Shown one piece after another: positions 8,136 through 38,758 of a DNA stretch of 38,896 nt. The DNA is from an uncultured Mycoplasmatota bacterium (GTDB taxonomy: Bacteria > Bacillota_I > Bacilli_A > RF39 > UBA660), in NCBI GenBank assembly GCA_947303405.1, contig CAMYYH010000006.1:1-38896 (forward strand), in the 5' to 3' direction. Each line of letters begins with the position of its first letter. Within the stretch, counting starts at the first letter, position 1. Under the pieces are notes generated by a model. The model was not told where the DNA came from, made no database searches, and worked only from the letters and a program-made list of their open reading frames with translations. A program made the translations under genes and the position numbers.

Positions 8136-9011
8136 TTATTTATTATTCTTTTCTTTTATCCATTCAAGTACTAAATTATTTATTTCATCTTCTTTATTAT
8201 GATAAAAATGATCTGCATTATCAATTATTTTATGTTTAAAACTTCTACATCTAATAGCTTTATCTTTTAATATATCTAAATGTAAATAATTATCAGTTTC
8301 TAAAGAACCAGAAAAAGTAAGAATTGGTACATCTATTGAAGCAAACTGTTCCCAATTATTAGAATAACCCATAACAGGTAAATTATCTAAATTAGAATTC
8401 TTTTCATACCAATTATAATAAGTCTTTGAACTCATATACATATAATCTTCAATAATATTACTAAGTAATTTGTTATCTTCTCCCCTATCAATATTATTTT
8501 TAGCTTCTTTAATAAGCTTTTTATAATCTTTTTGTCTTAATAAATGAAGACCTACCATATCTGGAGCACTTGCTAATATCATTCCTAAAATTTCAGGATG
8601 TTTTTTATAATAATAGTAAATAACCTTATTGCATCCATAACTATGTCCCATTAAAATAATACTTTTATATCCTAATTCTTTAGCTTTGCTAATTGCTAAA
8701 TCAATATCTAGAATACAATCCTCAAATATTTCATACATACATCCACATCTTGTATATGTACCATCTTTCATCAATATATCATTTTCTATCGAATAGCCTC
8801 TATTATGAGCATAAATAAATCCTATATTACTTCTAGACAATAGATTACCACACACTATTGCAAAATAATTATCAATTATAGTTTGACACATACCATGAAC
8901 AAATACTACACAAGTATCTTTTTCTTTTGCTTTAAAATGTACCATAGGAAGACGCATTCCATCTTCAGTATATGCATCATTAATAAAATCTACATTATAG
9001 TTAGCCTCCAA
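8136..9011 (-). CDS. alpha/beta hydrolase (copy 1)
   Basis: About 290 aa, cytoplasmic. The nucleophile elbow is GHSYG (LMGHSYGCNKVIYYYYKK), an oxyanion-type HG lies in VVFVHGMCQT, and the C-terminal catalytic His is in NADHFYHNK. The acid is probably the Asp or Glu of SGSLETDN. It is a serine hydrolase of unknown substrate. It is highly similar along its whole length to the gene at 18646-19506. The start is awkward: the only initiator-like codon is TTG 9011, which overlaps the GGAGG ribosome site. The ATG after that SD is out of frame and stops at once. The paralog has an ATG three codons further in, where this copy reads AAC. The real start is therefore unresolved. Confidence 0.85.
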   Translation of the reverse strand: MEANYNVDFINDAYTEDGMRLPMVHFKAKEKDTCVVFVHGMCQTIIDNYFAIVCGNLLSRSNIGFIYAHNRGYSIENDILMKDGTYTRCGCMYEIFEDCILDIDLAISKAKELGYKSIILMGHSYGCNKVIYYYYKKHPEILGMILASAPDMVGLHLLRQKDYKKLIKEAKNNIDRGEDNKLLSNIIEDYMYMSSKTYYNWYEKNSNLDNLPVMGYSNNWEQFASIDVPILTFSGSLETDNYLHLDILKDKAIRCRSFKHKIIDNADHFYHNKEDEINNLVLEWIKEKNNK

Positions 9012-14139: not shown

Positions 14140-14793
14140 TTATTGTAATACTTGATTAGCATTATCTAATAGTTCTTGGATTTTTATAAAGGCTTGGGAT
14201 AATGGAAAGCCATCAACAAATATATGGCTTACTGTTATATTTAGCATTAATTCATATTTACCATTATTCTCAGTATACTTTCCCCAACATATACGAGGTA
14301 TACATTGAGATGATTGATTATCTGGAATAGGATGGGTTACTTGGGTAAAGTCTACCCAAGGTGTACAAGTTATATAATAATCATCATAGCAATTCTCAGG
14401 ATTATAATTTTCTTTTCTAATATGACTTTGTTTTTTAACCTCTTCTATTTTAGTATGGGCTATTTCATAAAATTCTTTAAACGTATGACAATTTTTAAAT
14501 CTAACATTTTCAAAAGTTCCTAGTTCAGTCATTACTGTAAAAGCTGGATTAATATCCGAGAATATTACTGGTTTATCATCTACTAATCTCATTCTCATTT
14601 CATCTATAGAGTTTAAGCCATTTACTACAATATATAATAAATCTATAAAGAATGATTCTTTCTTATCTTTAACATGTTTTATTAAGTTAGTAACATCCAT
14701 TTTAACATTCATACTACAAGTACTATTAGAGAATGTTTTAAACCAGTCATAAGTCTTTTTTCTTTCGCTATTATTAAAATCTAATTCTTTCAT
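14140..14793 (-). CDS. chloramphenicol acetyltransferase-like protein
   Basis: 217 aa, matching the CAT trimer subunit (about 215-220). The catalytic signature HxxxDG is present near the C-terminus (TVSHIFVDGFPLSQAF). Other CAT landmarks are NPAFTV in the first half and a mid-protein YYITCTPWVDFTQVTH stretch like the CAT segment around SCIPW. CAT moves an acetyl group from acetyl-CoA to chloramphenicol in the cytosol. Many Clostridia and Bacilli carry relatives whose drug specificity is untested, so resistance is possible but not shown. Its ATG shares an A with the TAA of the upstream gene (TAATG), so it is translationally coupled to that unusual protein. Confidence 0.85.
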   Translation of the reverse strand: MKELDFNNSERKKTYDWFKTFSNSTCSMNVKMDVTNLIKHVKDKKESFFIDLLYIVVNGLNSIDEMRMRLVDDKPVIFSDINPAFTVMTELGTFENVRFKNCHTFKEFYEIAHTKIEEVKKQSHIRKENYNPENCYDDYYITCTPWVDFTQVTHPIPDNQSSQCIPRICWGKYTENNGKYELMLNITVSHIFVDGFPLSQAFIKIQELLDNANQVLQ

Positions 14794-16010
14794 TAACTCT
14801 CTCCTTGAAACACATAATTTGAGTTTAAAAAATCTGTTATTTTATGCATATCTACGCAAATAGTGTTATCATCTATTGTTGACAAGAAACTATTAGCAAA
14901 ACTAATAATATATCTTAGTTTATAATTATCTTCTTCATCTATACTCATTTCAGGATTATCTTGTTTATAATCCTTAGCCATAACTTCCTTTACTATAGCT
15001 CTAAGTTTTTTAGAAAAAGCTAGTTGTTCAGGAAAATACTTGTTGATAAATTCGTCGTATTTAGAATCAAACGCTTCTAAATCTTTGGCTCTAGTAGTTC
15101 CTAAACCAAAGGAATAGTTTCTACTTATCATATCAAGAACTGTTTCCCAATCTTTAGAATGATCATATCGACTATACTCAACTAAACCTCTTTTTTCTAA
15201 ACTATCAAAGAATTGTTTTATATTAATGTGAATACGATCTATTGGTACTATATCATGACCATCTTTAGATATCCATTCTCTATCTATATAGGCTACACCT
15301 TGTGGTTTAAAGAATTGTTTCCCATCACAAATGTGGATAGTTATTACTCTATCTGTTATTATCTTTTCTAAAACCCCTTCTACTCTTTCATCTATTTGAT
15401 ATATAACTTTATAGTTACCAAACTCATCGATAGTCTCTTTTATATTAGCTTTAACTATACTTGGATTACGAAATATAGCAAAGAATAAAGATAGAACTGG
15501 ATTATCTGTAGCATAGACATAGCTACCCTTTTGGGCACTCTCATTAGAATGAATTATGTCTAAATTATCAGGACTCCCATGATAAAGAATTCTAGGTACA
15601 TATTCAAATATATCACTATTATCACCTAGTTCTTCTTTTATCTCTTTTATTCTCTTACCACTTTTTCTTAGTTTATTTACTTGTTCTTCTATTGGTAAGA
15701 TTATTCTCATTCTTCTTTCATATTTAGACATTTCTATTCTAAATCTTATATTATAGATAAGATGTTTAAGCTCTAGTAGATATGAGTTTCTTGTAGCAGT
15801 ATTATTTTTAAATAATCTTTTTATCATTTTCGTAAGTTGTTTGTCGATAACTTTTATATCATTTGTCTCCAAACAAAAATAAGACGTAGATGTCCCCATC
15901 CTTGCGTCTTCTTCAATTCCTTTTTCTTTACATATTTTTTTTATAAAAGATAATAAATCTTGTTTAAAGTCATAAGTTGATTGTTGCTCGTATGCACTAT
16001 CAATACTCAT
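14793..16010 (-). CDS. protein with a possible ADP-ribosyltransferase-like fold, unknown function
   Basis: 405 aa, SD AAGGTAG, ATG 16010. Residues 1-135 are helical and basic. Then comes RILYHGSPDNLDII followed by GSYVYATDNPVLSLFF (about 140-185). YHGS plus YVYATxxxxxxxxFA is the arrangement seen in several ART-like families (H-Y-[E] type: His in YHGS, Tyr in the second strand). A later acid that could complete the triad is in VEGVLE or DREW, but this is uncertain. The remaining 180 residues are helical. The gene is coupled to the CAT-like gene. Alternatives: an ART-fold domain without activity, or an unrelated fold with a chance YHGS. Confidence 0.6.
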   Translation of the reverse strand: MSIDSAYEQQSTYDFKQDLLSFIKKICKEKGIEEDARMGTSTSYFCLETNDIKVIDKQLTKMIKRLFKNNTATRNSYLLELKHLIYNIRFRIEMSKYERRMRIILPIEEQVNKLRKSGKRIKEIKEELGDNSDIFEYVPRILYHGSPDNLDIIHSNESAQKGSYVYATDNPVLSLFFAIFRNPSIVKANIKETIDEFGNYKVIYQIDERVEGVLEKIITDRVITIHICDGKQFFKPQGVAYIDREWISKDGHDIVPIDRIHINIKQFFDSLEKRGLVEYSRYDHSKDWETVLDMISRNYSFGLGTTRAKDLEAFDSKYDEFINKYFPEQLAFSKKLRAIVKEVMAKDYKQDNPEMSIDEEDNYKLRYIISFANSFLSTIDDNTICVDMHKITDFLNSNYVFQGES

Positions 16011-17907: not shown

Positions 17908-18398
17908 TTAATATATAAGTTGTATATAATTATTTTTATTGTTTTGGTTATTATTTTTTTCGGCTAATTCTTCTAATAGTTTTATCAATATATTATAGAT
18001 TTTACCCATGAACTAATATAGGTTATCTCATTTACTGTATGATAGTTTTCTACAGTAGATCCAATAGATATGACATCTATATTACCGATACTATCTTTAA
18101 TAGTTACACATTCTAAGCCGCCTTGATCTATTCCTTCTTTAGAAAAATCGTGGTTGCTTTCTTTGGTTTTTACACAAACCATATCTAGATGAGCTTGGAT
18201 AGCTATAGATTCTCCTTTTATATTACCTTGTTTCTTAATTAGAACATTATTATAAGAGTCTTTATAACAATATAAATTATTATCACAGGCTATATTTATA
18301 AAGAAGTTAGCTATTCCCTCCTCATTACCTGATTGGCGAGGTATCTTAGATATTCTTAAGAAATTATTAACTAGTGTTTCTTTAATATTATTTATCAT
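17908..18398 (-). pseudogene. pepD: pepD remnant: internal deletion plus C-terminal frameshift
   Basis: The readable ORF (137 aa, 17985-18398, SD GAAGTGAT) starts like a cytosolic M20 aminoacyl-histidine dipeptidase: FLRISKIPRQSGNEEGIANF, DSYNNVLIKKQ, IQAHLDMVC with the metal-binding HxD, and THDF-like NHDF. At about residue 85 it jumps directly to the family's C-terminal end: GGLEC (normally HAGLECG), IDVISIGSTVENYHTVNE, ISSWVK. The middle, roughly 350 residues with the remaining metal ligands and the lid domain, is missing. After ISSWVKSIIY a TGA (17985-17987) stops translation. A shifted frame continues LIKLLEELAEKN, the typical last helix, to a TAA at 17908-17910. It is therefore non-functional as a peptidase. 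Confidence 0.85.
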
Positions 18399-18645: not shown

Positions 18646-19506
18646 TCAGTACCTTTCTTTTAACCATTCTAATATTAGATTACTTACTTCTAATTCTTTA
18701 TTATGATAGAAATGATCTGTGTTATCTATAGTTTGATAAGTAAAATCATTACAACTTATAGCTTTTTCTTTTAATATGTCTAGATGATGGTAGTTTTCTG
18801 TTTCATTAGAACCAGAAAATGTAAGAATGGGAATGTCTAAACTAGCAAATTGTTCCCATTTATTAGAATAATTCATAACTGGTAAGTTATCTACATTAGA
18901 ATCTTTGTTATACCAATTATAATATGTTTGGGAACTCATATACATATAGTCTTCTATTATATTACTAAGTAGTTTGGTGCCATTTCCTTTATCAATATTA
19001 TCTTTAGCTTCTTTTATTAGTTCTTTATAATCATTTTGTTTTAGTAGATGAAGGCCAACCATATCAGGAGCACTACCAAGTATCATACCTACTATATTAG
19101 GATGTTTCTTGTAGTAATAATAGATTAGTTTATTACAGCCATAACTATGTCCCATTAATACTATTTTCTTGTACCCTAACTCAAGAGCTTTATCAATAAC
19201 TAAATCAATATCTATTAGACAATCTTCAAATATTTCATACATACAGCCACATCTTATATACGTACCATCTCTTTTTAGTATGTCATTTTCAATAGAATAG
19301 CCCCTATTGTGTTCATATATAAAACCAATATTATTGTTAGATAGTAGTTTGCCACATTCGATAGTAAAGTAATTATCTATTATTGTTTGACACATACCAT
19401 GTATAAAAATAACACATAAATCTTTATCTTGGCTATTAAAATGGACCATTGGTAAACGTAAACCATCGGCTGTATATGCATCATTTATAAACTCTATATT
19501 ATTCAT
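18646..19506 (-). CDS. alpha/beta hydrolase (copy 2)
   Basis: 286 aa from ATG 19506. ATG 19512 is too close to SD GGAGGA. It carries the same catalytic layout as the gene at 8136: VIFIHGMCQT, LMGHSYGCNKLIYYYYKK with the nucleophile Ser, and DNTDHFYHNK with the His. Long blocks are identical between the copies, for example CGCMYEIFEDC and NIIEDYMYMSS. Differences are spread over the whole length, so the duplication is not very recent. This copy has a clean start codon, unlike copy 1. An extended -10 (TGA-TATAAA) lies upstream on the minus strand. The substrate is unknown. Confidence 0.9.
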   Translation of the reverse strand: MNNIEFINDAYTADGLRLPMVHFNSQDKDLCVIFIHGMCQTIIDNYFTIECGKLLSNNNIGFIYEHNRGYSIENDILKRDGTYIRCGCMYEIFEDCLIDIDLVIDKALELGYKKIVLMGHSYGCNKLIYYYYKKHPNIVGMILGSAPDMVGLHLLKQNDYKELIKEAKDNIDKGNGTKLLSNIIEDYMYMSSQTYYNWYNKDSNVDNLPVMNYSNKWEQFASLDIPILTFSGSNETENYHHLDILKEKAISCNDFTYQTIDNTDHFYHNKELEVSNLILEWLKERY

Positions 19507-19564
19507 ATACATTCCTCCATTGATTTATTTATATCATAGTTTTAAGTGGTATTAAAGTAGATAT

Positions 19565-19603
19565 AAAAAAAGAATTTAAGTAATAACCTTAAATTCTTTT
19601 TTT
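19565..19603. terminator. strong bidirectional terminator overlapping the 951-aa gene end
   Basis: A 16-bp perfect stem (19565-19580 with 19588-19603), A7 on one side and T7 on the other. The last codons and TAA (19589-19591) of the 951-aa gene lie in one arm. Confidence 0.9.
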
Positions 19604-22444
19604 GTGAACTAAACTTGGTATAGAAAGTGTTGTTGATTCAGCAACTAAACCCATCCCCACTATTGTATTAACGAAATCATCAACGTCAAGAGTATAATCT
19701 TGTGCCATTGCTTGCATCCTTTTTACAAAATCTGTTATATACTCTATAGCTATAGCTTTTTCTATTGGGTTACAGTTAGCCATTAGAGCAAGCGCTGTAT
19801 TTCTAATGTAATCAGCATCGTTAATTGTTGTTACCTTAGCAATCATTTCTATTTTTTCTTTCACTTTTTGATGGTGTTCAGAAGTAAAGGCCTCTGAATC
19901 AATCAAAGCTAATATCGATTTTTTGAATTTTACAGTTTCTCTTATGGTAGTATGTATGGCGGCCTTTAGATCCTCCCATTGTTGTTCATACATTTGAGGT
20001 TGTGTAATATCAAATTCATCATTAAAGTATTTTGCTAACTCGTTATTCATGTAAACGGCTTCTATTTTATCATTAGCAGTCCTTATACGTTCATCAAGTA
20101 TTTCTTCGTTGTTAAGAGCAAACTTTGTTTTAGCAAGGGGACTACACCTCAATATAGCATTCATCAAAGCTAATCTTTCTATTTGATTTAAATCAGAAAT
20201 TGGTAGCAAATGATAAAATCTTTTTAATAATCTTATATTGTCCCCACGATTTTCTCTATTTGCAAATAATCTTTGTATTTGTGGATTATACATTTCCTTA
20301 ACATATTGTGTTAAATGTCTAAGTATTTTTAAAAAATGAGCTATCTCAACATATAGATTTATAGGGTCAATTATTACTCCTTTTTCGGCATCATAATATG
20401 GAGATGAAAGAACTATTTCTTTTAGTTTAGGTGGTAGTCCTTCAGGAAGAGTATAACTAATAGGTGTATTAGGAGTTTTTATTTCTTTATATTGAAGTTC
20501 GCCTAATTCTTTAAATAAATCTGTTACCCGAGATATGCTAGTTTGTTCAACTCTTAAATTTCGAATAAGATTCAACGGTATTGTTTCTGGATTAGCTATT
20601 TTAGAAGCTAATAGCTGGCTATTGCTAGGTCTTATACTATTAGCCAAAGCACAATCATTATTAGTATAGTTTATTCTATTTTCTAGATCTTTTATCTCTT
20701 CTATATGAGGAATATGAGCAATTAGGAATTCTCTTATTTCTCTTGGATTACCATTTTCGAGAACATTTAACAATTCCCTAGCATCAGCAAGGTCTTTAAC
20801 ATCCTTTTCGTTCCCCTCTTTACTTAAAGCCTCTATTCTTTCTTTAGTACCTTTTATTAACAGTGGTTTTACTTCTTCGATTAGGGCATTTGAAGAACCT
20901 TTTATTAACAAGTAGGTTGGGCACCAGTCTAATCCTTCAAATAAAGCAGCTTCTTTTAACTGTAATACTCTTCGTTGAAATTCTATATATTCATTATCAA
21001 TTAAACTATTCTTTCCTAGATCTTCTAAGTGAGTTGCGGCTGTATTAATATTATTACGTTCTAACCCAACTATTATTTTAAAATCATCTATAGTTACGTC
21101 ATTTTTAATTTGGGTTAAACACCTTATAATCCCTTGAATGTCACCCTTCGTGCCTATTCTAGAAAGAGCATGTAATTTAACTTTTCTAATAACTTCTGCT
21201 AGATAAGCTTTAGCAAGCAGCTCTATTAAGAAAGAAGGGTTATTTTGAAGACCATTGCTCATATCTCTTATAACCTTGCTAGAAATAGTATCTCTTGCGT
21301 GTAACATGGAGGAAATATTTTCAACAATTCTTCTCATTTCTTGCCAGTTTTTGTAGGCATAGGTTTGGGAACTCTCCGAAAGCAGCTTGCATCCTTCTAA
21401 CCAAGTGGTATTACTATGAATAGCTCCATATACACTATTAGAATCTTGTATTGGGCCAAGCCATTCCTCTAGCGCCTTATCCGCCTCTTGATACCATTTT
21501 AAGACCTGCTCAAAACCATCTTTAATGACTTCTTTTTTGCGGCGTCTGTTTTGGAATATGTATAGAGGGCTTTCTAAGAATTTTTTTGTATCTTTTTGTA
21601 GTTTATCTCTATGAAAGTCGAGTAAAAAAGTAGCGTCTGTTTCCAAATTAATTTTATCTTTATCTTCAATATATGAGCTTAGTCTCTCCAGTTTGCCAAT
21701 TATATACTCAGCAGCCAGCTTCTTTGTTACGTCTTCAAATCTTCTAAATAGGTTTTCCATTTTCGAACGCAACCCTTTAACCTTCATAAGAGAATGAGTT
21801 TCTGCATCATAGTAAATGGAATCATACAACTCATTTAATATGATTGGAGATAATCCGTTTTGTTCTACCCTTATCATTCCATTTTCAGCATCGCGACATA
21901 TGCCCTTCATTTCCTCTAGTGATTTATAAAAATCGTTTAATAGTTTTATTATAAAATCCATTTTTGATCCGTTAATAGTATTAGAAGTCAAACTATCATC
22001 AGTTTTAGCCTTATCATCAAAGGCACCCATATTCATTTCTGCAAAGGCGGCAATCATTGTACTAGGATTCTTTTGGGATTCTTCTAGTATTGTGGCTAGT
22101 TCCTCGTGATAAGGGATTAAAGAAAGAAGTTGTTTTTTTATTTCAGCATTTGGTAAAGAACTCATATTTGCTAAAAACGAATCATTTAATTCTTTTTTTA
22201 CCTCTTCTATTTCTGTATCTGACAGGTTTTGAATTCTTACATATATAGGAAGCCATACCATGTTTTTTAAAGATAATTTTTCATAGTTTAATAGCTGTAG
22301 TTGTAATTGTAAGCTCTCATTACTAGGATTTTCTTTAAGACGTGATTGAACTGATGCAATCGCTTGTTCAAAGGTTCGAATTTCATTAATTATGCTCTCA
22401 ATATATTGTTGAATTGGTATAATTTTGGGGTTAGTAGTACTCAT
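19589..22444 (-). CDS. large helical repeat-module protein (951 aa), unknown family
   Basis: 951 aa, soluble, almost entirely predicted helix, with no signal peptide, membrane segment or nucleotide motif. Two copies of a module can be seen by three landmarks in the same order. Module 1 has NMVWLPIYVRI (61-71), LSLIPYHEEL (107-116) and GLSPIILNELYDSIYYDAE (197-215). Module 2 has LDWCPTYLLI (505-514), LIAHIPHIEEI (574-584) and GLPPKLKEIVLSSPYYDAE (669-687). A third copy is in the neighbouring 556-aa protein. The C-termini of both proteins also look related (LAKYFNDEFDI versus VYDYFGYRVDL). The protein has its own promoter and terminator. Codon use is less AT-extreme than in adjacent membrane genes. 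The function is unknown. The modular form suggests a scaffold or binding protein, which is inference only. Confidence 0.75.
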   Translation of the reverse strand: MSTTNPKIIPIQQYIESIINEIRTFEQAIASVQSRLKENPSNESLQLQLQLLNYEKLSLKNMVWLPIYVRIQNLSDTEIEEVKKELNDSFLANMSSLPNAEIKKQLLSLIPYHEELATILEESQKNPSTMIAAFAEMNMGAFDDKAKTDDSLTSNTINGSKMDFIIKLLNDFYKSLEEMKGICRDAENGMIRVEQNGLSPIILNELYDSIYYDAETHSLMKVKGLRSKMENLFRRFEDVTKKLAAEYIIGKLERLSSYIEDKDKINLETDATFLLDFHRDKLQKDTKKFLESPLYIFQNRRRKKEVIKDGFEQVLKWYQEADKALEEWLGPIQDSNSVYGAIHSNTTWLEGCKLLSESSQTYAYKNWQEMRRIVENISSMLHARDTISSKVIRDMSNGLQNNPSFLIELLAKAYLAEVIRKVKLHALSRIGTKGDIQGIIRCLTQIKNDVTIDDFKIIVGLERNNINTAATHLEDLGKNSLIDNEYIEFQRRVLQLKEAALFEGLDWCPTYLLIKGSSNALIEEVKPLLIKGTKERIEALSKEGNEKDVKDLADARELLNVLENGNPREIREFLIAHIPHIEEIKDLENRINYTNNDCALANSIRPSNSQLLASKIANPETIPLNLIRNLRVEQTSISRVTDLFKELGELQYKEIKTPNTPISYTLPEGLPPKLKEIVLSSPYYDAEKGVIIDPINLYVEIAHFLKILRHLTQYVKEMYNPQIQRLFANRENRGDNIRLLKRFYHLLPISDLNQIERLALMNAILRCSPLAKTKFALNNEEILDERIRTANDKIEAVYMNNELAKYFNDEFDITQPQMYEQQWEDLKAAIHTTIRETVKFKKSILALIDSEAFTSEHHQKVKEKIEMIAKVTTINDADYIRNTALALMANCNPIEKAIAIEYITDFVKRMQAMAQDYTLDVDDFVNTIVGMGLVAESTTLSIPSLVHKKRI

Positions 22445-22481
22445 CTCTCTCTCTCTTTTCTATCACTTATATCTTCAGCTC

Positions 22482-22519
22482 GGTAGATATTATATATCTA
22501 TAACAATTATTTGTCTACC
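22482..22519 (-). promoter_or_regulatory. promoter of the 951-aa gene with flanking dyad
   Basis: On the minus strand TAGACA (22517-22512), 17 nt, TATAAT (22494-22489). An inverted repeat, GGTAGA (22482-22487) with TCTACC (22514-22519), brackets the promoter and could be an operator. The same TAGACA-N17-TATAAT promoter precedes the 556-aa gene. Confidence 0.65.
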
Positions 22520-22561
22520 AATAATATCGTATATTAAGGAAGCAATTATTATGAGAAATTC

Positions 22562-22588
22562 AAAAAACGCAATTAATTTTGCGTTTTT
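22562..22588. terminator. terminator after the 556-aa gene
   Basis: AAAAACGCAA (22563-22572), 6-nt loop, TTGCGTTTTT (22579-22588). It separates the transcripts of the two related genes. Confidence 0.85.
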
Positions 22589-22659
22589 GACTATTGTTTC
22601 AATATATCACTAATTATGCTTCATAACTCTCATCCATTTATGGGTGATTTTAATATATA

Positions 22660-24330
22660 CTATGACCCGTTTTTTGTTGCAACTTCACCTTTTTTTACTA
22701 AGGTTGAAGCTACAACTTCTGAAAGCTCTGCTGGTACTTTTTCTTGGGAAGCAGTAGGGAATACTATTGGCCCTCTTCCTCTCAGTGCATAATTTACATC
22801 CCATACTATTGTTGTAACGTCGTCTAAACATCCATTTTTAATGCGAGCTTTGGAGATGGATTGGAATAGTTCAAAATATTCCTTTATCATTATGCTTACT
22901 CTTGCGCTAGCAAGATATAATCTGTCTTCTTGAATTTTTTGGTTAATTTTTATTACGTCATCTTCATCAAATGCTATTTCATCGCTCACTAGTGCTCTAA
23001 GAGCTTCCATGGCTTTTTCTTTACCCACTGTTGCTTGGGTTAATAATAATTTCTTTTTATTATAATTCGCAGATTGGTCCAATTCTATGTGTCTTATGAT
23101 AGCAACAAGAGCCTCTAAAGCATCATTTGTTGCCGTTACTGCTTTCCTATATTCTTCTGATTGTTTAGTAGGGGTACTGTTACTCAAGTCTACTCTATAG
23201 CCAAAATAGTCATAAACTGTTGAGGCTAATGCCGGCTGATTGTTAATAGTTTGATCTGTTGTATAGTATTCTTTTACTCTTGTTAGTGCTGAATGTAATA
23301 AGGTGGCTAATTTTTCCTCATTTTTTTTACCATATATAAGTCTGTGGTTATTGCGGTTTTCCATTTGAAAAAAATCACTTAGGCCAACAACTAACAGGTG
23401 TCTACTCAAGCCGCTAATTACGTTAGCAATTATTTTTTTGTTTTTTATATTAAGTGATTTTGGGGAAATAAAAGCAACTTTAAGTTTTTCTTCTAGATAA
23501 TGTCCCTCATACTTTTTGGCTTTTTCTTTTAATTCTTTTTGAAATATTTCAACTATTCTTTTAAATTTTTCGAAATCTATTATTTTTTGTTCCGGTTCGT
23601 AGTAGCATCCAGAATCCTTTATTTCTTTAAGTAATTTTGGAGGTAGATTATCTGGTAATGATATTTTAAAACCATTTTCTCTTTGCTGATTAGTATGCTC
23701 TGCTACATTTCTCACTAGAGAGTTAATATCTTTAATTGTTTTTCCAGCTAAACATTCTGATGTTTGCCATTTAGGCCCATCACTTGAGTTATTCTCAATA
23801 TAATAGGTTCTTTGAGGACTAGGTATATGCCTTGCTAAAGCCAGTGTTAATGCATCTATTTCTTCATTAATCCTTGCAACTTCTGTATCACGTAAATACG
23901 CTGTTTTTTTCATTGAGTTTATAACTATACTTTTAAAACCTTCTAGTGTCACATTTATATATTGACCAGTTTGTTGTAATGCTTCTAATTCTTCTTGAGA
24001 CATTTCCAGTATTCTAGCTAAATGAGGAAGGAATTGTAATCCTTCTACACCCAAAAGAGTTAATAGTGAATATTTAACTTCAGTATAGTTTATAACACGT
24101 TTTGGGATATTTGTACTTTCTCTTCTTAATATTTGGCTTTTGTAATCAAATAGCACTTGTTGTTCTAATGCCTTCTCGATGAATACTTGCAAGTAATTGT
24201 CGGATATTGTCTCTTTCATCTGCGCATAATTTATTAGTTCTATCGCTTTATCCCTTAGATTAGGATGTATATCTCCTATCGATTCTAAAAAAGTCTTTGG
24301 TAACTCTGTGCTTGCATATGGGTTTTTCAT
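22660..24330 (-). CDS. helical repeat-module protein (556 aa), paralog of the 951-aa protein
   Basis: 556 aa, soluble and helical, SD AAAGAGG. It carries one copy of the module of its neighbour: VEGLQFLPHLARIL (95-108), LALARHIPSP (163-172), NLPPKLLKEIKDSGCYYEPE (228-247). Its C-terminal part (STVYDYFGYRVDL, then SEEYRKAVTATNDALEALVA) parallels residues about 800-860 of the 951-aa protein. There is no catalytic motif, signal peptide or membrane helix. It sits immediately upstream of its larger relative on the same strand but with a separate promoter of identical type. It is probably a product of duplication, and I know of no named family that fits. Confidence 0.75.
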   Translation of the reverse strand: MKNPYASTELPKTFLESIGDIHPNLRDKAIELINYAQMKETISDNYLQVFIEKALEQQVLFDYKSQILRRESTNIPKRVINYTEVKYSLLTLLGVEGLQFLPHLARILEMSQEELEALQQTGQYINVTLEGFKSIVINSMKKTAYLRDTEVARINEEIDALTLALARHIPSPQRTYYIENNSSDGPKWQTSECLAGKTIKDINSLVRNVAEHTNQQRENGFKISLPDNLPPKLLKEIKDSGCYYEPEQKIIDFEKFKRIVEIFQKELKEKAKKYEGHYLEEKLKVAFISPKSLNIKNKKIIANVISGLSRHLLVVGLSDFFQMENRNNHRLIYGKKNEEKLATLLHSALTRVKEYYTTDQTINNQPALASTVYDYFGYRVDLSNSTPTKQSEEYRKAVTATNDALEALVAIIRHIELDQSANYNKKKLLLTQATVGKEKAMEALRALVSDEIAFDEDDVIKINQKIQEDRLYLASARVSIMIKEYFELFQSISKARIKNGCLDDVTTIVWDVNYALRGRGPIVFPTASQEKVPAELSEVVASTLVKKGEVATKNGS

Positions 24331-24377: not shown

Positions 24378-24406
24378 ATTATATAACTTACTTTATTAGT
24401 TGTCTA
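24378..24406 (-). promoter_or_regulatory. promoter of the 556-aa gene
   Basis: On the minus strand TAGACA (24406-24401), 17 nt, TATAAT (24383-24378). Directly upstream lies a hairpin, AAGAAG (24411-24416) with CTTCTT (24424-24429). Confidence 0.65.
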
Positions 24407-24511: not shown

Positions 24512-26380
24512 ATGATATTAACGTCTGAGATATATCTAACTAAGAGTAAGGTTACTCCTGAAGAATGGTTAGAATTAATTAATACAATATCTGATTATAA
24601 TGGTTATTTAAAAAGATGGCGTATAATAATAGTTAATGAAAATAATCATTTAAGATATTTTGTTAAAACTAGATGTAGTTTACCTGCTTCTATAAAGGAT
24701 TTAAGTTGTTTCTTATTAAAAGAAGCAGAAGATATAAAAGAACCTGAGCCTAAATATTCTTCTTTTTCATTCCCTAGATTAGAGGATAATATTATAGATT
24801 TAATTAATTTTTGTGAAGTTAGAAATAAAGGAACACTTGAATATTTAGATATTAGATTTTCAAAGTCGTTAGATGGAAAAATAAAATCTAAAGTTAAGTA
24901 TTATATAAATAAAAATGGTATAGTTAAAAGATGTATAGTTCCTTTATCTATTCCTACTAATATTTTAGCTGTAGATTTTGCTGGAAATAGTAGATATTTT
25001 TATAAGAAATGTCCTAAGTATTTAGATATAAATAAGATATTACATTTATTAAATTCTGATTCTAGTAATGCTTTATTATCTGTTGATACATTTCCTTATT
25101 TACAGGGTAAGTTTTATTTAAACCAGAATAGTTTTTGTTTTGACAAGCACTCTATTATAATGGGTTCTTCTGGATGTGGTAAATCAAAGTTTATTAGTTT
25201 GTTAGTTAATAATATTTTTAAAAATGAAAGATTAAGACAGCAATACAAAGTTGTAGTAATAGATCCGCATGCAGCATTAGAAAATGATATTGGGGGGATT
25301 GGCAAAGTAATAGATTTTAAAGATAAATTGGATAGTATAGATTTATTTATTAATAATACTGAAGATATCGTAGCATCTACGGAGTTGTTAATAGATTTAT
25401 TTAAGGCTTTAATTGCTGATCAGTATAATTCTAAATTAGAAAGAGTCTTAAGACATTCTATACATGTATTATTAGCTGATAAAAGTTTTAATTTTAAAAG
25501 TTTAAGAAAATTATTATTAGATTTAGAATATAGAAATGATTTAATTAAAAAGGTAAAAAACAATGTGCCGGTTAGTGTGGTTGATTTTTTCTTAGTAGAT
25601 TTTAATGATTTAAGGACTAAGTCTTATTCGGAAACAATCTCACCAATAATTAGTTTTATAGATGAGATGGAAATGATACCGGTATTTAATTCAACTGATA
25701 TATCTACTAGCCTTAGTGATACTATTAAAGATAATTTCCTTACTCTATTCTCTTTAGATAGAACTAAATTAGGGGATAAAGTTACTAAGACTATTGCTGG
25801 ATTAATAATGCAACAATTATTAACTATTATTCAAATGAATGAAATTGATCAACATATTATTTTTATTATAGATGAAGTTGCAGTTATAGAGAATCCTATT
25901 CTTTCTAAATACTTATCTGAAGCTAGAAAGTATAATTTATCTTTAATACTAGCAGGGCAATACTTTAATCAGATATCGGAAGAATTAAAGAGTTCTATAT
26001 TTGCTAACGTAGTTAATTATTATATTTTTAGAGTATCTAAGTTAGATGCTAATATACTGGCTGATAGCTTTAATATGAAGATTCCTACTGATGATTCGCG
26101 AGAAACTAAGGTTAAATTATTATCTGAACTTAATAATAGAGAATGTATTGTTAGAGTATCTTCTAATGATGTGTTATTACCGGCTTTTAAGGGTGTTACT
26201 TTGAATTATACTAGTATTCCAAGAATAAAAAGGGAAAGTATAAAAGAAAGTAATAACTTGGAAGAAAATGATAATAAGTCTACTAAGACTAAGTTTAGTT
26301 TATATAGTAATGTTAGTTTGAAAGATATTATGATATCTACTTCAACTAACAGGAGAGGAGTAAGAAAGAATGGACGATAG
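24512..26380 (+). CDS. HerA/VirB4-like P-loop ATPase
   Basis: 622 aa. The N-terminal 200 residues are an unrecognised domain, possibly membrane-peripheral, with no signal peptide. The ATPase core starts with Walker A GSSGCGKSKF near 217. Then comes VVVIDPHAALEND (typical of the HerA/VirB4 DUF87 group), Walker B IIFIIDEVAVIENP near 450, and sensor-like LILAGQYFNQI. Such hexameric ATPases pump DNA or protein in conjugation, DNA repair and defence. No nuclease, NurA or SIR2 partner is adjacent. The only coupled gene is the overlapping cysteine-rich protein. The Lys/Ser-rich C-terminal tail is probably disordered. A motor or translocation role is solid at superfamily level. The pathway is unknown. 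Confidence 0.85.
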   Translation: MILTSEIYLTKSKVTPEEWLELINTISDYNGYLKRWRIIIVNENNHLRYFVKTRCSLPASIKDLSCFLLKEAEDIKEPEPKYSSFSFPRLEDNIIDLINFCEVRNKGTLEYLDIRFSKSLDGKIKSKVKYYINKNGIVKRCIVPLSIPTNILAVDFAGNSRYFYKKCPKYLDINKILHLLNSDSSNALLSVDTFPYLQGKFYLNQNSFCFDKHSIIMGSSGCGKSKFISLLVNNIFKNERLRQQYKVVVIDPHAALENDIGGIGKVIDFKDKLDSIDLFINNTEDIVASTELLIDLFKALIADQYNSKLERVLRHSIHVLLADKSFNFKSLRKLLLDLEYRNDLIKKVKNNVPVSVVDFFLVDFNDLRTKSYSETISPIISFIDEMEMIPVFNSTDISTSLSDTIKDNFLTLFSLDRTKLGDKVTKTIAGLIMQQLLTIIQMNEIDQHIIFIIDEVAVIENPILSKYLSEARKYNLSLILAGQYFNQISEELKSSIFANVVNYYIFRVSKLDANILADSFNMKIPTDDSRETKVKLLSELNNRECIVRVSSNDVLLPAFKGVTLNYTSIPRIKRESIKESNNLEENDNKSTKTKFSLYSNVSLKDIMISTSTNRRGVRKNGR

Positions 26381-27059
26381 TAAAGCATTAGAGATTATTA
26401 ATAAAATATTTAACAATGTATTTGAAAGGGATAATACTTATTCTCTTGAGGATATATTAGAAAAGTTTGCTTTTGATATAAAATTGCCAAAGCAAGTAAA
26501 TGACTCTACTACAAATGAAATTACTTGGGCTGATGCGATTAATAGTGGCAGATATATAACTTCTAAGAATGCAGAAAAGAAAGAAGATTGGATGCTTAAA
26601 AAAAGAGAGATTAATAATCTTCAAGAATTAATAGATATTTGGGCATCTATTAATTTAACTACAACAGAAAGAGTATTTGACTCTATTAATGTAGCTAAAA
26701 GTGATACGATATATAGAAGCGAAAATGTGTATAGAAGTACAGATTGTAGTGATTCTAAGAATCTTGTATATTGTGACACTTGTTTAGATTCAGAATATTT
26801 ACTAGCTTCTCAAAGATCTAATACATCTAGTTTTTGTATTAGATGTGATGATTCAAAGGGATGTAGTAATTGTTATAACGTTATATATTCTGCTAAAGTA
26901 AGTAATTCTTTATTTATTCAAGATTGTTATGATATTCATGAGTGTATGTTTTGCTCTCATATAAGTAATAAAAGATATTGTATAGCTAATATGCAATTTG
27001 AAGAAGAAGAATATTTTGAAATAAAGAAGTTAATTATTGAGTGGATATTAAGTTCATAA
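26370..27059 (+). CDS. cysteine-rich repeat protein overlapping the ATPase gene
   Basis: 229 aa, starting inside the last codons of the ATPase gene (11-nt overlap, SD GGAGAGGAG), so expression is coupled. The N-terminal 100 residues are helical and charged. From about 105 on, short repeats of roughly 10-14 residues run through the protein around Ser, Asn and Cys: SDTIYRSENVYRSTDCSDSK, NLVYCDTCLDSEYLLASQ, CIRCDDSKGCSNCYNVIYSA, SNSLFIQDCYDIHECMFCSH. It closes with NKRYCIANMQFEEEEYFEIK. The repeats suggest a solenoid, possibly metal-stabilised by CxxC pairs. The end (NKxYCIxNxQxxxEEY) recalls cysteine-rich proteins I remember from candidate-phyla bacteria, which is from memory and unverified. 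Function unknown. Confidence 0.65.
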   Translation: MDDSKALEIINKIFNNVFERDNTYSLEDILEKFAFDIKLPKQVNDSTTNEITWADAINSGRYITSKNAEKKEDWMLKKREINNLQELIDIWASINLTTTERVFDSINVAKSDTIYRSENVYRSTDCSDSKNLVYCDTCLDSEYLLASQRSNTSSFCIRCDDSKGCSNCYNVIYSAKVSNSLFIQDCYDIHECMFCSHISNKRYCIANMQFEEEEYFEIKKLIIEWILSS

Positions 27060-32256: not shown

Positions 32257-32281
32257 AGAAAAAAATCCTTAAGAGGATTTT
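32257..32281 (-). terminator. terminator of the secretion-type operon
   Basis: On the minus strand AAAATCCT, loop CTTA, AGGATTTTTTT. It abuts the TAA (32280-32282) of the coupling-protein gene. Confidence 0.8.
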
Positions 32282-35200
32282 AATCATCACCAAAGAAATC
32301 ATCAAAGAATTCATCATCGGTTATTACACTGTTGTTTTTAACTTCAATACTATCAGCATCAATATTAACATTAGCTTTAGTAGTATTTACTTCAATCTTT
32401 CCTTCATTTTCCATTCTAGTTATGTTAGTTTGAATTCTTTGTTTTAAAGCATCCGCTTCGCTAGGTGTACTTTCTTGTGGAGTAATCGTAGCTTTTACTT
32501 CTTCCTTATTATCGTAATCATGAACTATCTCGTTCATATTGGTATTTTCTAAACTACTATCAACCTTTATTGGAGCTTCATTTAGATAAGCAGGATTAAT
32601 TAAATCAGCATTTTGAGCTTCCGGAAGCGAGTCATCTAATGAGAAGTCATCTTCATCGATAGGACTCTTAGTAGCTATAGCAACATTAGGAGTAGCTGTA
32701 TCTATTTTTATCTTAGGCTCATCTAATGACTCATAATTAGGTGTATCAACTTTGGTAGTAATAGAGATATTACTACTTGAATCTTTGGTACTAACTTTTG
32801 GTAATTCAATATTGTTCTCAACTGATATATCGACATCCTTAATCTCCTTGGTTTTATTACTAGATAAATTAAAATCTAATTTTATATCTGATGGAGAACT
32901 TGATGTTTTAAACTCTGGATTTACGCCAGGTAATGAGGTATTAATAGTTGAATCACTTTCAATGTCATAAATATAATTATCTTTTTTAGTGTCAACATTA
33001 ATATCGAATTTTGGCTTAGCAAATTTAGCATCAATGTTTACGTCTGGAATTGGATTATCAATCTTAGCGTCAATATTTACGTCTGGAATTGGATTATCAA
33101 TCTTAGCATCAATATTTACGTCTGGAATTGGATTTTGAACCTTAGTATCAATATCAACTTCTGCTTTATCCGGTAGTGCATTTAGTTTGGCATCAATTTC
33201 CGCCGCTTCCTTTTTCTTCTTCGCTAACTCTTCTTTTTGACGAGCTTCTTCAGCATCAAGTTCAGCTATTTTTTTATCAATGTCTCTCATCATTGCATCA
33301 AAGTCGATTTTGTTATTTGTAAGACCGCCTAAAGCTCCCGTATTATCATTTTGAACCCCAATTGAAGGTTGGCTGGCAAATGGACTAGACTTATCAAAGG
33401 CACTAGGTGGTGAACCAAATGGACTTGGGTTATTGAATGAATTAGAGCCACCAAATGGACTTGGGTTATTGAAAGAATTAGAGCTACCAAATGGACTTGG
33501 GTTATTAAATGAATTAGAGCTACCAAATGGACTTGGATTATTGAATGAACTAGAGCTACCAAATGGACTTGGATTATTGAATGAACTAGGGCCGCCAAAT
33601 GGACTGCTACCAAATGGACTAGGATTCCCGTACATTCCTCCTGGAGGATTGTTAAATCCACCCATTGAATTGTTTTTATTATCACCTATACTATTTAATA
33701 CTTTTTCAGTCTTTTTGTTTTTAACAAAGGTTTTAACGTCAAACAATTGAATTTGTTGTTCTTCTCTTTGTGGGAAAGCACTATGACTCTTTTCATGTCC
33801 CCAATTCATTTTAAAGTTTGGAGTATAGTTTACTTTTAATGGAGATAAACGCCATCTAATAATTATTGCTTGGAATAATTTTAGTTTTTGTAAATCTGTT
33901 ACAGTAACTAATGGTGTTGAAGATGTTTTTTCGTCGTCTTTTGATTTAACTTCCCCACACATCTTACTGATTTCTTCTAGTGCGGCTAATTCGGTACTGA
34001 TTAGGTATACTAAGTTACCACAGTTACCTCTAATAGTTTCAGCAATTTCAGCGCCATAAACACCTTTTAACTGAGCGAAGTTCTGGATAATGAATGTAAA
34101 TCTAATATCACGTGAACGAGCTGCTGTAACCATTGTTCCAACGTCTTTTAGTGGAGGCATGTTCGCAAACTCATCTAAAATAAAGTTTGTTCTAAATGGT
34201 AATTTCCCGCCATTAGCCTGAGCAACATCTATTAATGTTTCATAGACTTGTTTGATAAAAATTGTAGCAAGTCCGTGGTAGGTGGTTTTCTCGTCATGTA
34301 TACATATGAATACGGCTGTTTTTTCTTTACCGATATCTCTTATGTCAAAGTCACTATGAGATAACATTTCTGACAAGTTTTCACGAGATGCAAACCCTCT
34401 TATCTTTTGTCTAAATACTGATAAGATACTACCTTTTGTATCTTGAGGAGCATTGATTGTGTTAGATGCGAAAACGTAAGCGTTTGAGCTTTCTCCCTTC
34501 TGAGTGAAGTATTCCTTAATATACGTATTAGTACCGCCTAGTTTTTCTTCTCCAACAGTAGACATATAGTTAATAGAGTTAAGATTCATTTCTTCTTCTT
34601 TTGCATCTTCAAATAAACCTAATGCTAATCCGGAGAAGTAATCGGCTGCAGATTTTTCCCAGAAAGGTTCACCTTTATTATTAGGATCATATAAAATATT
34701 TAAAGCAACGTCATCAAGTAACTCTGTTGATTTATCTTTGTTGCCTTCTTGATAATATTTATATGGTAATGATAACGGATTCCAAGCATTACCTTTTTGT
34801 GGATCACGGAAGTTTAGTATTACAACTTTGTAACCTCTTTCTTTTAGGTAATCTCCTGATGATATATATATTTCTGCTTTGGGGTCAGTAATAATCATAC
34901 TTTCGCCTTTTTTTATTAATAGTTCAACCATTGGTTCAACTATAGTCTGTGATTTACCTGAACCAGTAGATCCGATTACTAAGTTATGGTATTCTCCATT
35001 ATCTACCCATAGGTGTTTACCATCATTAATTAATGGGATACCTGCGGCTTTTATCTCACTGTCTAATGGATTTACCATTTCAACATCTTTATCTTCTTTG
35101 TATTCTTTCTCTTTAGCCCATCTATTATAGCCTTTTTCTTCCTTGTCTTTTATTTCAAGGCCGATACCACTTTTCTTACGTTCAAATACTGAACTTTTAA

Positions 35201-35414
35201 CACTAGTAAAAATGATTATTAAAAAGACTGCAAATAAAACTAAAGTAGCACTTGGATACTTAAATAATCCAACGAAAGGATTTAACCCGGCAGTTAGAGC
35301 ACCATCATATTGAAGGGACATAAAATTACCTACTAGTATCGCACATAAATATAATAATAAAACACAAAATATTATAAACGTAATAAAATCTTTTTTAGAA
35401 ATTCTAAATTTCAC
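32280..35414 (-). CDS. VirD4/TraG-type coupling ATPase with long repetitive C-terminal tail
   Basis: About 1044 aa. GTG 35414 is preferred, with SD GGGGTGAT. The in-frame GTG at 35432 lies upstream of that SD. Two membrane helices (about 7-30 and 50-70) anchor a cytosolic motor: Walker A GSTGSGKSQT near 150, MIITDPKAEIY, NAWNPL, Walker B TNFILDEFANMPPLKDVG near 411, IIQNFAQLKGVYG, and RGNCGNLVYLIS, all hallmarks of T4SS coupling proteins that bring DNA or effectors to the channel. Standard members end near 600. Here about 450 extra residues follow: a 12-aa PSPFGSS-type repeat array, a coiled coil (AELDAEEARQKEELAKKKKE), a 13-aa NPIPDVNIDAKID repeat array, and an acidic tail ending DDFFGDD. 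The tail may bind cargo or partners. Confidence 0.92.
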   Translation of the reverse strand: MKFRISKKDFITFIIFCVLLLYLCAILVGNFMSLQYDGALTAGLNPFVGLFKYPSATLVLFAVFLIIIFTSVKSSVFERKKSGIGLEIKDKEEKGYNRWAKEKEYKEDKDVEMVNPLDSEIKAAGIPLINDGKHLWVDNGEYHNLVIGSTGSGKSQTIVEPMVELLIKKGESMIITDPKAEIYISSGDYLKERGYKVVILNFRDPQKGNAWNPLSLPYKYYQEGNKDKSTELLDDVALNILYDPNNKGEPFWEKSAADYFSGLALGLFEDAKEEEMNLNSINYMSTVGEEKLGGTNTYIKEYFTQKGESSNAYVFASNTINAPQDTKGSILSVFRQKIRGFASRENLSEMLSHSDFDIRDIGKEKTAVFICIHDEKTTYHGLATIFIKQVYETLIDVAQANGGKLPFRTNFILDEFANMPPLKDVGTMVTAARSRDIRFTFIIQNFAQLKGVYGAEIAETIRGNCGNLVYLISTELAALEEISKMCGEVKSKDDEKTSSTPLVTVTDLQKLKLFQAIIIRWRLSPLKVNYTPNFKMNWGHEKSHSAFPQREEQQIQLFDVKTFVKNKKTEKVLNSIGDNKNNSMGGFNNPPGGMYGNPSPFGSSPFGGPSSFNNPSPFGSSSSFNNPSPFGSSNSFNNPSPFGSSNSFNNPSPFGGSNSFNNPSPFGSPPSAFDKSSPFASQPSIGVQNDNTGALGGLTNNKIDFDAMMRDIDKKIAELDAEEARQKEELAKKKKEAAEIDAKLNALPDKAEVDIDTKVQNPIPDVNIDAKIDNPIPDVNIDAKIDNPIPDVNIDAKFAKPKFDINVDTKKDNYIYDIESDSTINTSLPGVNPEFKTSSSPSDIKLDFNLSSNKTKEIKDVDISVENNIELPKVSTKDSSSNISITTKVDTPNYESLDEPKIKIDTATPNVAIATKSPIDEDDFSLDDSLPEAQNADLINPAYLNEAPIKVDSSLENTNMNEIVHDYDNKEEVKATITPQESTPSEADALKQRIQTNITRMENEGKIEVNTTKANVNIDADSIEVKNNSVITDDEFFDDFFGDD
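33028..33145 (-). repeat. 39-bp tandem repeat (13-aa units) in the coupling protein
   Basis: ACGTCTGGAATTGGA recurs at 33040, 33079 and 33118, exactly 39 bp apart, encoding NPIPDVNIDAKID units on the minus strand. Degenerate flanking units continue on both sides (DIDTKVQ, KFDINVDTKKD). Confidence 0.9.
33412..33623 (-). repeat. 36-bp tandem repeat (12-aa units) in the coupling protein
   Basis: CCAAATGGACT recurs at 33415, 33451, 33487, 33523, 33559 and 33595, each 36 bp apart, then once more 15 bp on at 33610. It encodes SFNNPSPFGSSN units on the minus strand. Near-identical DNA copies suggest recent expansion and likely copy-number change. Confidence 0.92.
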
Positions 35415-35459
35415 ATTATCACCCCAGTACACGCAATATTATACTATATTAATTGGTTA

Positions 35460-36229: not shown

Positions 36230-38758
36230 CTATCCTCTCTTATTAGCTTCATTTTCATAGAAGCCTGTTAAATCAACACCACTATAATTAGAGGCATCGA
36301 AAGGTACTCGCTTAAATTCAACACCATCAGTTAAGCCTGTTGCGGCGGCACATATATATTCATTTTTAGAACTATCTATATCAACGATTAGTACTACATG
36401 GTGAGAGTTATATAGTAAGTCACCTGGTTGCATTACTGGATTAATAGATAGGTTAACGTGTTTGGCTCCCGCTATATTAACAAAATCGTTAGCAGAGGCA
36501 CTAATATATCTAAAGCCGCCGTTATATATGGCCCAACTTACAAATCCTGAACAGTCAAGTCCACAGTGGTTATATACTTTATCACCATTACTTGTATGAC
36601 AAGTATTACTTCCCCAGTTTCCAGAAGAGCCATCAATTGCTCCTGCGTGACCTCCACCCCAGTAGTATGGAAGTTTTATATTATATTTATTACCTAATTC
36701 ACCTATTAGAGTTACGGCAGCAGATGCTACTCCGGCTCTTGTTGCGTAGCCTGCATTTTTAACGTTAGTATATATTTTGGTATTAAAGTCTTCTATTGTA
36801 ACATTGTAATTCTCTAAGAATTCTGATAATGGGATTGATAAGATTCCATTATTATCTGTAGATAGCTGATAATTACTATTATCTACTATTGCTTGAGTAC
36901 ATTTCTTACCTTCTAGTTTACCTGCTCCATAAAGGTTTTCTAATATTTCTTGGTATGTGTAGCCAGCTTTTGCGTAGTTGCGCATGGCGGCTGTTTTTGA
37001 GGCATTGTAATTAGTTTTGACTATTTCACTACCTACCATTAAGACCTCGCCTTTTATAGAGCTAGCTACACTCTCAACATGACTGATCCTGTCAGCAGAT
37101 AAAGCTTCTTTCCATGGAGAACCAACTCCACTAGTAGTTGCGTTTACTTCCGGTGAATATCTAGAAATTTTTCCTCTAGCTAGGCGATATATGTCTTGGG
37201 TATAATCCCAGTACACTTGATCGTTTTCACAAGCGCGCATACGAATAATACCAGTTGAAGCATTATAACCATAGAAGCAATTATTAGGATCAGATTCACA
37301 CATGCCTTGGTTTCTTGTTAGAGCGAAGTTTCTGGCAGCTATTATTTGAGCTTTAAGAGCTTCATCAGGAGACTCACTGGTGCTACCACCCATTTCAGCT
37401 AAAGCTACGCCTAATACGTATTTTTCAAAGTCTATTGTTTCAAGAACTGTATATTGTTTAGATGATCCCATACAATTAATTAATTCTACTTTTACGTTAT
37501 TACTTGAAAAAGTAGTGGTTCCATTATTAGCTGCGGCTCCATAAGTACATACTACATTTTGGTTAGTTGTATTAGAAATGTTATTACTATTATCCCCATC
37601 TGAAACGGATAATACTCCAATGGCGACTATTACAATAAGTGCTAATGCTAGTATTGTACCTCCTATTATTACTAGAATTACGGGATGTTTTAACAATAGC
37701 ATTGCTGCTTTTTTTAATAGTTTGTTTTTTGCTTTGTTAGCAAGGTCAGAAAGAAAACTGTTTCTCGAATTATTATCATTAGTTGTAGCCTCACTATTTC
37801 GTGTGTATCCACCTGATGCTGATGTGTTTCCGTCAGATGGACTGAACTCGTCTTCAGAATGTGTAGATGAACCATCAGTTGAAAATGGTGATGCAAAAGG
37901 TTGGCTTCCATTTGTTTTTGGTAGTGTTCCTTGTGGTGGTAAGGACGGGTTATGGATTCTTCTTCCCCTAAACGCACCTTTTTGTTGTGTAGATGATGTA
38001 CCTCTATTTTTAGAGGAACTTTGGGGTATTCTTTCTCTTTTTGTAGTATCAGGTTTTTTTTCTTGAGTATTATTATTTTCTCGTCTTACTCTATAAGGAA
38101 CTTCTGTTTTTCCGTTTGATCCATCTGCGAGTTGTGTATTTTTAAAAGCGACTTGCTTTTTGCCGGCAATTTTGCGTTTCGCACTTGTAGTATTATCTTG
38201 GCTTTGACTTTGATTATGTTCGATTGTTCCCTCAGTATTTGGTGATATAAAAGGGTTCCCTGTTTGGTCTTGTCTTTGTCCTGGGGGATTACTTTGGAGT
38301 TTTTGTGGAAATCGGCCACCAATCGGTTTTTTCCCACCCGAAGTAAATAAATTACCATCTGGTGGATTGGACATTCCACTTGAAGTAAATGAATTAACAT
38401 TTTGTGAATTTGTCTTTCCACCTTGAGAATAGGATTTTTGAGCTGTGTCTCTATTTTGTTGGTCAGCTAGTCTTCCTTGTGGTTGGTCTGGCAACGAGGA
38501 ATTAGGTTTTCTATTATTTGATGAGCGTAAGGCGTCAACAATCTCACGAGGAAGATTTATTGCTCTATTAGAACCTGGTTTATTTTCACTAGTTATTATG
38601 CTTCCAAGTGTTTTTCTAAGATTATCTTGAGGGAGCGAGGCAAAGTTTTTCATGAAATAATTAATAATAAGTTCTTTGTCATTAGTAGACATGGAATCCG
38701 TTATGATTCCTGCTTCTATTAGTATTTCAACCATTTTTTCTCTATTGATGTTATTCAT
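36230..38758 (-). CDS. bitopic wall hydrolase: SpoIID-like plus NlpC/P60 domains, long disordered cytoplasmic arm
   Basis: 842 aa, SD GGGGTGA. Residues 1-60 form a short helical domain. About 70-330 is low-complexity Gln/Ser/Asn/Pro sequence. A single membrane helix (about 353-383, PVILVIIGGTILALALIVIV) puts the rest outside. There a SpoIID-type domain (about 430-600; DFEKYVLGVALAEMGG, EALKAQIIAARNFALTR) is followed by NlpC/P60 (about 680-842) with catalytic Cys in GLDCSGFVSWAI near 735 and His in NSHHVVLIVD. These domains cleave peptidoglycan, as CwlT/VirB1-type enzymes do to let a secretion channel through the wall. It is first in the visible operon with the lipoprotein and VirD4-type ATPase. 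The long inside arm is unusual. Confidence 0.92.
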   Translation of the reverse strand: MNNINREKMVEILIEAGIITDSMSTNDKELIINYFMKNFASLPQDNLRKTLGSIITSENKPGSNRAINLPREIVDALRSSNNRKPNSSLPDQPQGRLADQQNRDTAQKSYSQGGKTNSQNVNSFTSSGMSNPPDGNLFTSGGKKPIGGRFPQKLQSNPPGQRQDQTGNPFISPNTEGTIEHNQSQSQDNTTSAKRKIAGKKQVAFKNTQLADGSNGKTEVPYRVRRENNNTQEKKPDTTKRERIPQSSSKNRGTSSTQQKGAFRGRRIHNPSLPPQGTLPKTNGSQPFASPFSTDGSSTHSEDEFSPSDGNTSASGGYTRNSEATTNDNNSRNSFLSDLANKAKNKLLKKAAMLLLKHPVILVIIGGTILALALIVIVAIGVLSVSDGDNSNNISNTTNQNVVCTYGAAANNGTTTFSSNNVKVELINCMGSSKQYTVLETIDFEKYVLGVALAEMGGSTSESPDEALKAQIIAARNFALTRNQGMCESDPNNCFYGYNASTGIIRMRACENDQVYWDYTQDIYRLARGKISRYSPEVNATTSGVGSPWKEALSADRISHVESVASSIKGEVLMVGSEIVKTNYNASKTAAMRNYAKAGYTYQEILENLYGAGKLEGKKCTQAIVDNSNYQLSTDNNGILSIPLSEFLENYNVTIEDFNTKIYTNVKNAGYATRAGVASAAVTLIGELGNKYNIKLPYYWGGGHAGAIDGSSGNWGSNTCHTSNGDKVYNHCGLDCSGFVSWAIYNGGFRYISASANDFVNIAGAKHVNLSINPVMQPGDLLYNSHHVVLIVDIDSSKNEYICAAATGLTDGVEFKRVPFDASNYSGVDLTGFYENEANKRG

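Follow-up and report, generated by a model that had tools for sequence, protein, structure and literature searches.

The window, that is, the whole stretch of 38,896 nucleotides analysed here, corresponds to contig C6 of an assembly that totals 1.1 Mb and is 64.6% complete. Near its middle, two neighbouring genes on the minus strand encode the large proteins A and B, which are listed with their landmarks and flanking signals in Table 1. The gene on one side of the pair, adjoining A, is the second of two alpha/beta hydrolase genes (window positions 8136-9011 and 18646-19512), duplicates about 10 kb apart that share 219 identical residues of about 290. On the other side lie a gene for a HerA/TrwB-like ATPase and the next gene, of 229 aa (24512-27059), a neighbouring pair that is kept in most sister species. 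Elsewhere in the window there is a 405-aa protein (14793-16010) with no Pfam match but with a stretch, RILYHGSPDN...GSYVYATDNP, that we take to recall ADP-ribosyltransferase-like motifs, and a protein of 137 aa (17985-18398) that is like the N-terminal part of a metal-dependent aminopeptidase and whose gene is probably truncated. Conjugation-type genes end the window: a VirD4-like coupling protein of the CD1115 family, which exceeds its NCBIfam cut-off (32280-35432), and near it a SpoIID / NlpC-P60 protein (36230-38758).

Table 1. Features of the two genes in the window, with positions numbered from its first base, and location of the small gene found in relatives
Feature	Sequence or pattern	Residues	Position	Strand	Remarks
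Protein A, 951 aa			19589..22444	minus	ORF; two complete units fused head to tail
Protein B, 556 aa			22660..24330	minus	ORF; one family unit
Unit A1		1-470 of A	21035..22444	minus	profile match
Unit A2		471-951 of A	19592..21034	minus	profile match
Landmark 1 in A1	LKNMVWLPIYVRIQNLS	59-75	22220..22270	minus	
Landmark 2 in A1	SLIPYHEEL	108-116	22097..22123	minus	
Landmark 3 in A1	NGLSPIILNELYDSIYYDAE	196-215	21800..21859	minus	helix and small beta element (predicted by model)
Landmark 1 in A2	FEGLDWCPTYLLIKGSS	502-518	20891..20941	minus	
Landmark 2 in A2	AHIPHIEE	576-583	20696..20719	minus	
Landmark 3 in A2	EGLPPKLKEIVLSSPYYDAE	668-687	20384..20443	minus	
Landmark 1 in B	GLQFLPHLARILEMS	97-111	23998..24042	minus	
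Landmark 2 in B	ARHIPSPQ	166-173	23812..23835	minus	
Landmark 3 in B	DNLPPKLLKEIKDSGCYYEPE	227-247	23590..23652	minus	
Promoter-like site upstream of A	TAGACA-N17-TATAAT		22489..22517	minus	44 nt before start codon
Promoter-like site upstream of B	TAGACA-N17-TATAAT		24378..24406	minus	47 nt before start codon
Hairpin and U run between B and A			22563..22588	minus	likely terminator of B
Small gene of relatives, about 45 aa			L061 7862-8005; also L062, L063, L064, L065, L076, L138		

The preliminary description of the locus saw three landmarks recurring in the same order in three places, twice in A and once in B, and C-termini that resemble each other. Both observations hold. The landmarks are found where they had been placed, and the likeness of the segments exceeds that of shuffled sequences (Smith-Waterman, 200 shuffles), with z of 9.1 for the two halves of A against each other and of 5.6 and 5.1 for each half against B. 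Profile alignments extend the homology over the whole unit of about 400-470 aa, C-termini included. A matches a profile of relatives twice in a row, first with residues 10-539 and then with residues 470-928, and against the profile of members from other genera A1 scored 68.3 and A2 40.7 (the same sequences reversed, 15.7 and 16.4). Common ancestry of the A1, A2 and B segments is supported by these alignments. The repeat module proposed earlier has thus kept its shared ancestry but not its shortness: it is a unit of full length, two of which are fused in A.

A search with A revealed two further paralogues in the genome, C (604 aa, contig C12) and D (489 aa, contig C1), which brings the total to five units in four genes. 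Pairs involving C and D reach z of 11-16 by the same shuffling procedure, with 16.4 for B against C, which is also the closest pair in the genome (BLASTP E 1.6e-9); the halves of A match C and D at E 4e-7 to 5e-5. Near D and an enolase gene there is a type VII secretion (T7SS)-type cluster comprising a WXG100 protein, a 939-aa protein and a glucosaminidase (L025 2520-7055). Among the 14 other species of the genus, no member was detected in 13, and one member was found in the remaining species (G011). In a tree, the five units of the genome cluster together with 78% bootstrap, a modest sign that the units may have expanded in this lineage. The expansion that had been suggested for the family is upheld in this sense; its confinement to the lineage is not, as other genera have one-unit relatives. 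In the tree A1 groups with D, and A2 with B, on long branches, which gives no clear signal for or against a tandem duplication of A from B or of the halves of A from each other.

It had also been noted that neither A nor B has a recognisable membrane segment, and the repeat module had been called unrecognised. The highest 19-residue Kyte-Doolittle mean in the two proteins is indeed about 1.5 or lower, and Pfam, NCBIfam, PHROGs, PADLOC, the PDB and phage records hold no convincing match. In Pfam-A, A found no family, the matches of B stayed below cut-off (Peptidase_C10, 17.6 bits with a cut-off of 26; DUF7261, 13.8 with a cut-off of 27), and none of ten relatives exceeded the cut-off. Positions 279-367 of B match the NCBIfam model NF008638 (BolA) at 30.9 bits (E 2.2e-7), the family cut-off being 137 bits. 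A BolA domain was rejected, since Pfam shows no match to BolA at E 0.1 and no other tested member has the likeness, and the resemblance is taken as chance. The best PHROGs match had E 0.0018 over 46 residues, tblastn found nothing in 50,697 phage records, and PADLOC gave no match for A, B, the G390 member or member E188a and only a weak one for D, to an RT model (E 3.7e-4, 17.7 bits). Nothing convincing turned up among PDB sequences, and no catalytic motif was recognised in the family. In sum, the sequence family is undescribed in every library searched; the type of arrangement described below, with a small helical partner gene beside a large helical protein, resembles known ones.

The search for relatives started from an alignment of the genome's own five units and went on to broader ones. 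Members turned up in about ten further genomes of a single GTDB family, which probably belongs to class Bacilli, order RF39. RF39 has been described as uncultivated, its highly reduced genome going together with many auxotrophies (PMC6784871). The other genera represented are those of G188 and G434 (two genes each), G390, G319, G019, G364 and G020; G170 and G075 joined the list after later searches. At E below 1e-5, members were found in 7 of 386 genomes, with weaker matches in more. The genome's own units align with nine members from other genera at a score of 140 over 464 columns (probability 98.9%); reversed sequences reach 15, and 71 unrelated long proteins from the same loci at most 21. 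Identity across the family is about 20% and most end branches of the tree measure 1-2.5 changes per site; all members are intact long ORFs, and the landmarks are kept at this level of identity. The first searches, made with the own units alone, found no relative in the genus; the G011 member came to light beside a conserved ATPase gene. Profiles from a single lineage therefore underestimate the family.

The limits of the family were sought more widely. In 376 genomes across the class, only weak matches were seen beyond the GTDB family, and those that were checked failed; matches in L012, L015, L059, L100, L103 and L105 were judged to be chance. A distant group (L023, L024, L055 and L056; 395-429 aa) aligns over its full length (probability 94.8%) and is counted as probable only. 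One contig from a MAG labelled 'Clostridia' (L060) matches the G390 member ('Bacilli') at 1664 of 1668 bases, likely a difference of labelling. A recent foreign origin was considered and rejected, as GC and GC3 of the members match those of local genes in most cases; the exceptions are C and the G011 member, whose GC is 2-2.5 sd higher, GC3 not being raised. The family is accessory, patchy in its distribution and fast-evolving.

An exact TAGACA-N17-TATAAT stands at a promoter-like distance upstream of the transcription units of A, B, C, E188a and L364. Six exact copies occur in 506,683 unique bases, where 0.49 are expected, and five of the six belong to family genes from three genera. It was at A, B and E188a that the motif was noticed, post hoc; C and L364 were not used in defining it. 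The canonical TTGACA-17-TATAAT has three copies in the same bases, never at a member. The lone copy outside the family precedes a 70-codon ORF (L054 14605-14633) on the contig of member M020. The motif is absent from D, which lies closely downstream of miaB, and from most of the other transcription units. In the intergenic region between B and A, the hairpin has a predicted stability of -10.5 kcal/mol (z -2.9), which none of 200 shuffles reached. As hairpin and U run are followed by the promoter-like site of A, the two genes are probably transcribed separately.

A second gene accompanies the family in part of its range. In six relatives (G390, H319 of G319, K019 of G019, L364 of G364, R434b of G434 and S011 of G011), a small ORF of 44-53 codons lies directly upstream of the large gene and overlaps it, by 8 nt in five cases and 14 nt in one. 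The peptide follows the pattern LEKILSLSKEELEKIFSQLSxEEIEDLLNKLNEV and is predicted from its sequence to form two short amphipathic helices. It has no Pfam match over cut-off, no relative in the PDB and no detectable homology to the large protein. Its identity to the first sequence is 51-81%, whereas that of the same large proteins is 21-52%. Between G390 and H319, the small gene has dN 0.111 and dS 1.03 (ratio about 0.11) and the large gene dN 0.377 and dS 0.745 (ratio about 0.5), values that are rough, dS being near 1. Judged by these substitutions, the small partner is under purifying selection.

A profile of the six peptides (47 positions; 64-92 bits in the six source loci), run over 386 genomes, returned the known carriers in the set and one new strong match, in G075 (E 2.4e-11). 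The gene that follows encodes a family member of full length (score 83.7, against 14.1 when reversed), and G075 had been absent from earlier matches to the large-protein profile over the same kind of genome draw. Since the peptide profile alone led to this large member, the match confirms independently that small and large gene belong together as a unit. With G075 there are seven loci with a closely coupled pair, six of them with an overlap. G075 and G390, which belong to different genera, have a common gene order: Spo0A-like regulator, phosphoglycerate mutase, one further gene, small gene, large gene, rpsJ. The small gene is absent upstream of A, B, C and D, of E188a and of several other relatives, and none was found elsewhere in the genome of the window at its 64.6% completeness (best match at chance level, E 0.05). 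The pair is thus not essential to the family.

As to the fold, A1 gave a poor model from a thin alignment (pLDDT 53.7); the relative from G390, modelled with the same eight-sequence set, reached a mean pLDDT of 84 and a pTM of 0.58. The G390 model predicts long N-terminal helices, a central part that bears the landmarks and long C-terminal helices, with a strand-helix-hairpin at landmark 3 as the one small beta element. No clear membrane-like segment is present in 19 units (highest 19-residue Kyte-Doolittle mean 1.77). The family is taken to consist of soluble, all-helical proteins of 400-660 aa per unit, the modelled relative being rich in coiled coils. Against the PDB, Foldseek gave a best E of 0.21 for the helical model, with only residues 1-204 well covered, and the best Z in a VIA structure search was 10.5, helical models commonly scoring as high as 13-14. 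The long antiparallel helices are reminiscent of SMC-type and other coiled-coil proteins (the MukB elbow, the Smc arm, alpha pore-forming toxins), but the likeness is weak (E no lower than 0.2 in Foldseek, Z no higher than 10.5 in VIA), the scores fall within the range of unrelated helical bundles and, unlike these proteins, the family has no recognised ATPase motif or membrane-inserting segment.

We tentatively infer that the large protein serves in the cytoplasm as a coiled-coil scaffold or adaptor. It would have a fast-changing binding surface and, where the small gene exists, a dedicated small partner. This function seems quite possible, if short of probable. As long coiled coils yield chance structural resemblances, the scaffold label is based on shape only. 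Where the small gene is present, the peptide would be made beside the large protein and would pack on it during translation. The fast-changing helical surface would bind a variable target, perhaps another protein of the same cell or one belonging to a competitor or a phage. In the lineage of the window, the small partner would have been lost or never present, and units would instead have been multiplied and fused.

The main rival to the scaffold reading is a conflict module, anti-phage or toxin-antitoxin-like, in which the large protein would be the fast-evolving sensor or toxin and the small one its regulator or antitoxin, with diversity arising from an arms race. The patchy presence (7 of 386 genomes at E below 1e-5), the dN/dS of about 0.5 in the large gene vs. 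about 0.1 in the small one, the possession of an own promoter, and the overlap with a small gene placed first, an arrangement seen in many toxin-antitoxin pairs, all fit such a role. We nevertheless hold it to be unlikely: PADLOC was blank for A, B, G390 and E188a and weak for D (E 4e-4), no recognised defence genes adjoin members in the loci examined, many members have no small gene, and a catalytic motif is not recognised.

A role as substrate or accessory of type VIIb secretion, with the small peptide in the part that Lap targeting factors play for LXG effectors, looked promising from the surroundings of two members. E188a lies directly beyond a T7SS cluster, an EssC-EsaB-WXG100-like-DUF4176 array (Pfam DUF4176, E 5.6e-26), and D is two genes away from a WXG100 gene. 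The layout is also shared with LXG systems, where a large helical protein typically has a small helical partner next to it (PMC9600955); LXG operons with Lap1/Lap2 (DUF3130/DUF3958) likewise combine a large elongated helical protein with a small helical partner gene. Unlike these operons, however, the family has no recognised LXG, WXG or toxin domain, its partner of about 45 aa is smaller than the Lap proteins, and its members have their own promoter; a terminator and the TAGACA promoter-like site stand between E188a and the cluster. The distribution of EssC is a further argument against this role. Full-length EssC was not found in the member-bearing genomes G390 (89% complete), G364 (94%) and G020 (93%), it is present in same-genus species that have no members, and in the T7SS loci of G021, G000, G434, G319 and G019 no member lies beside it. 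The link of the family to T7SS is weak, and a secretion role appears quite unlikely.

The family could also be a nearly unconstrained set of orphans, drifting and kept by chance with no important function, as the dN/dS of the large gene and the frequent absence from sister species might suggest. The conservation of the small gene under purifying selection disfavours this reading, as do the intact long ORFs throughout, the landmarks that persist at about 20% identity, and a promoter and gene coupling conserved across genera; drift is very unlikely to be the explanation. A phage tail remnant, in which the pair would be an assembly chaperone and a tape measure protein, is highly implausible: a short gene overlapping a long helical one in similar order is indeed the layout of such pairs, and tape measure proteins are among the best viral structural matches (best E 1.3e-3), but these matches have TM-scores below 0.17, phage records and PHROGs were blank or unconvincing as described above, and members are chromosomal genes that stand alone between housekeeping genes with no other phage genes seen around them.

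The family might represent a previously unrecognised two-protein module of reduced-genome gut Bacilli, in which a strongly conserved helical peptide and a co-translated hypervariable rod serve as a recognition or conflict device, the rod diversifying and duplicating (up to five units here) under a dedicated promoter type. This proposal is speculative, and we would not rate it as likely.

Uncultured, genome-reduced gut Bacilli have many orphan genes that offer no functional handle. In the present family, the partner gene and the common promoter are more informative than the repeat landmarks, and the small peptide is the best handle on the family. Several fast-evolving copies of 1.5-3 kb in a small genome suggest an interaction with something that itself changes. 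With a small, conserved gene as partner, a promoter that can be recognised and the outline of a fold, an orphan family acquires a role that can be tested on the protein pair.
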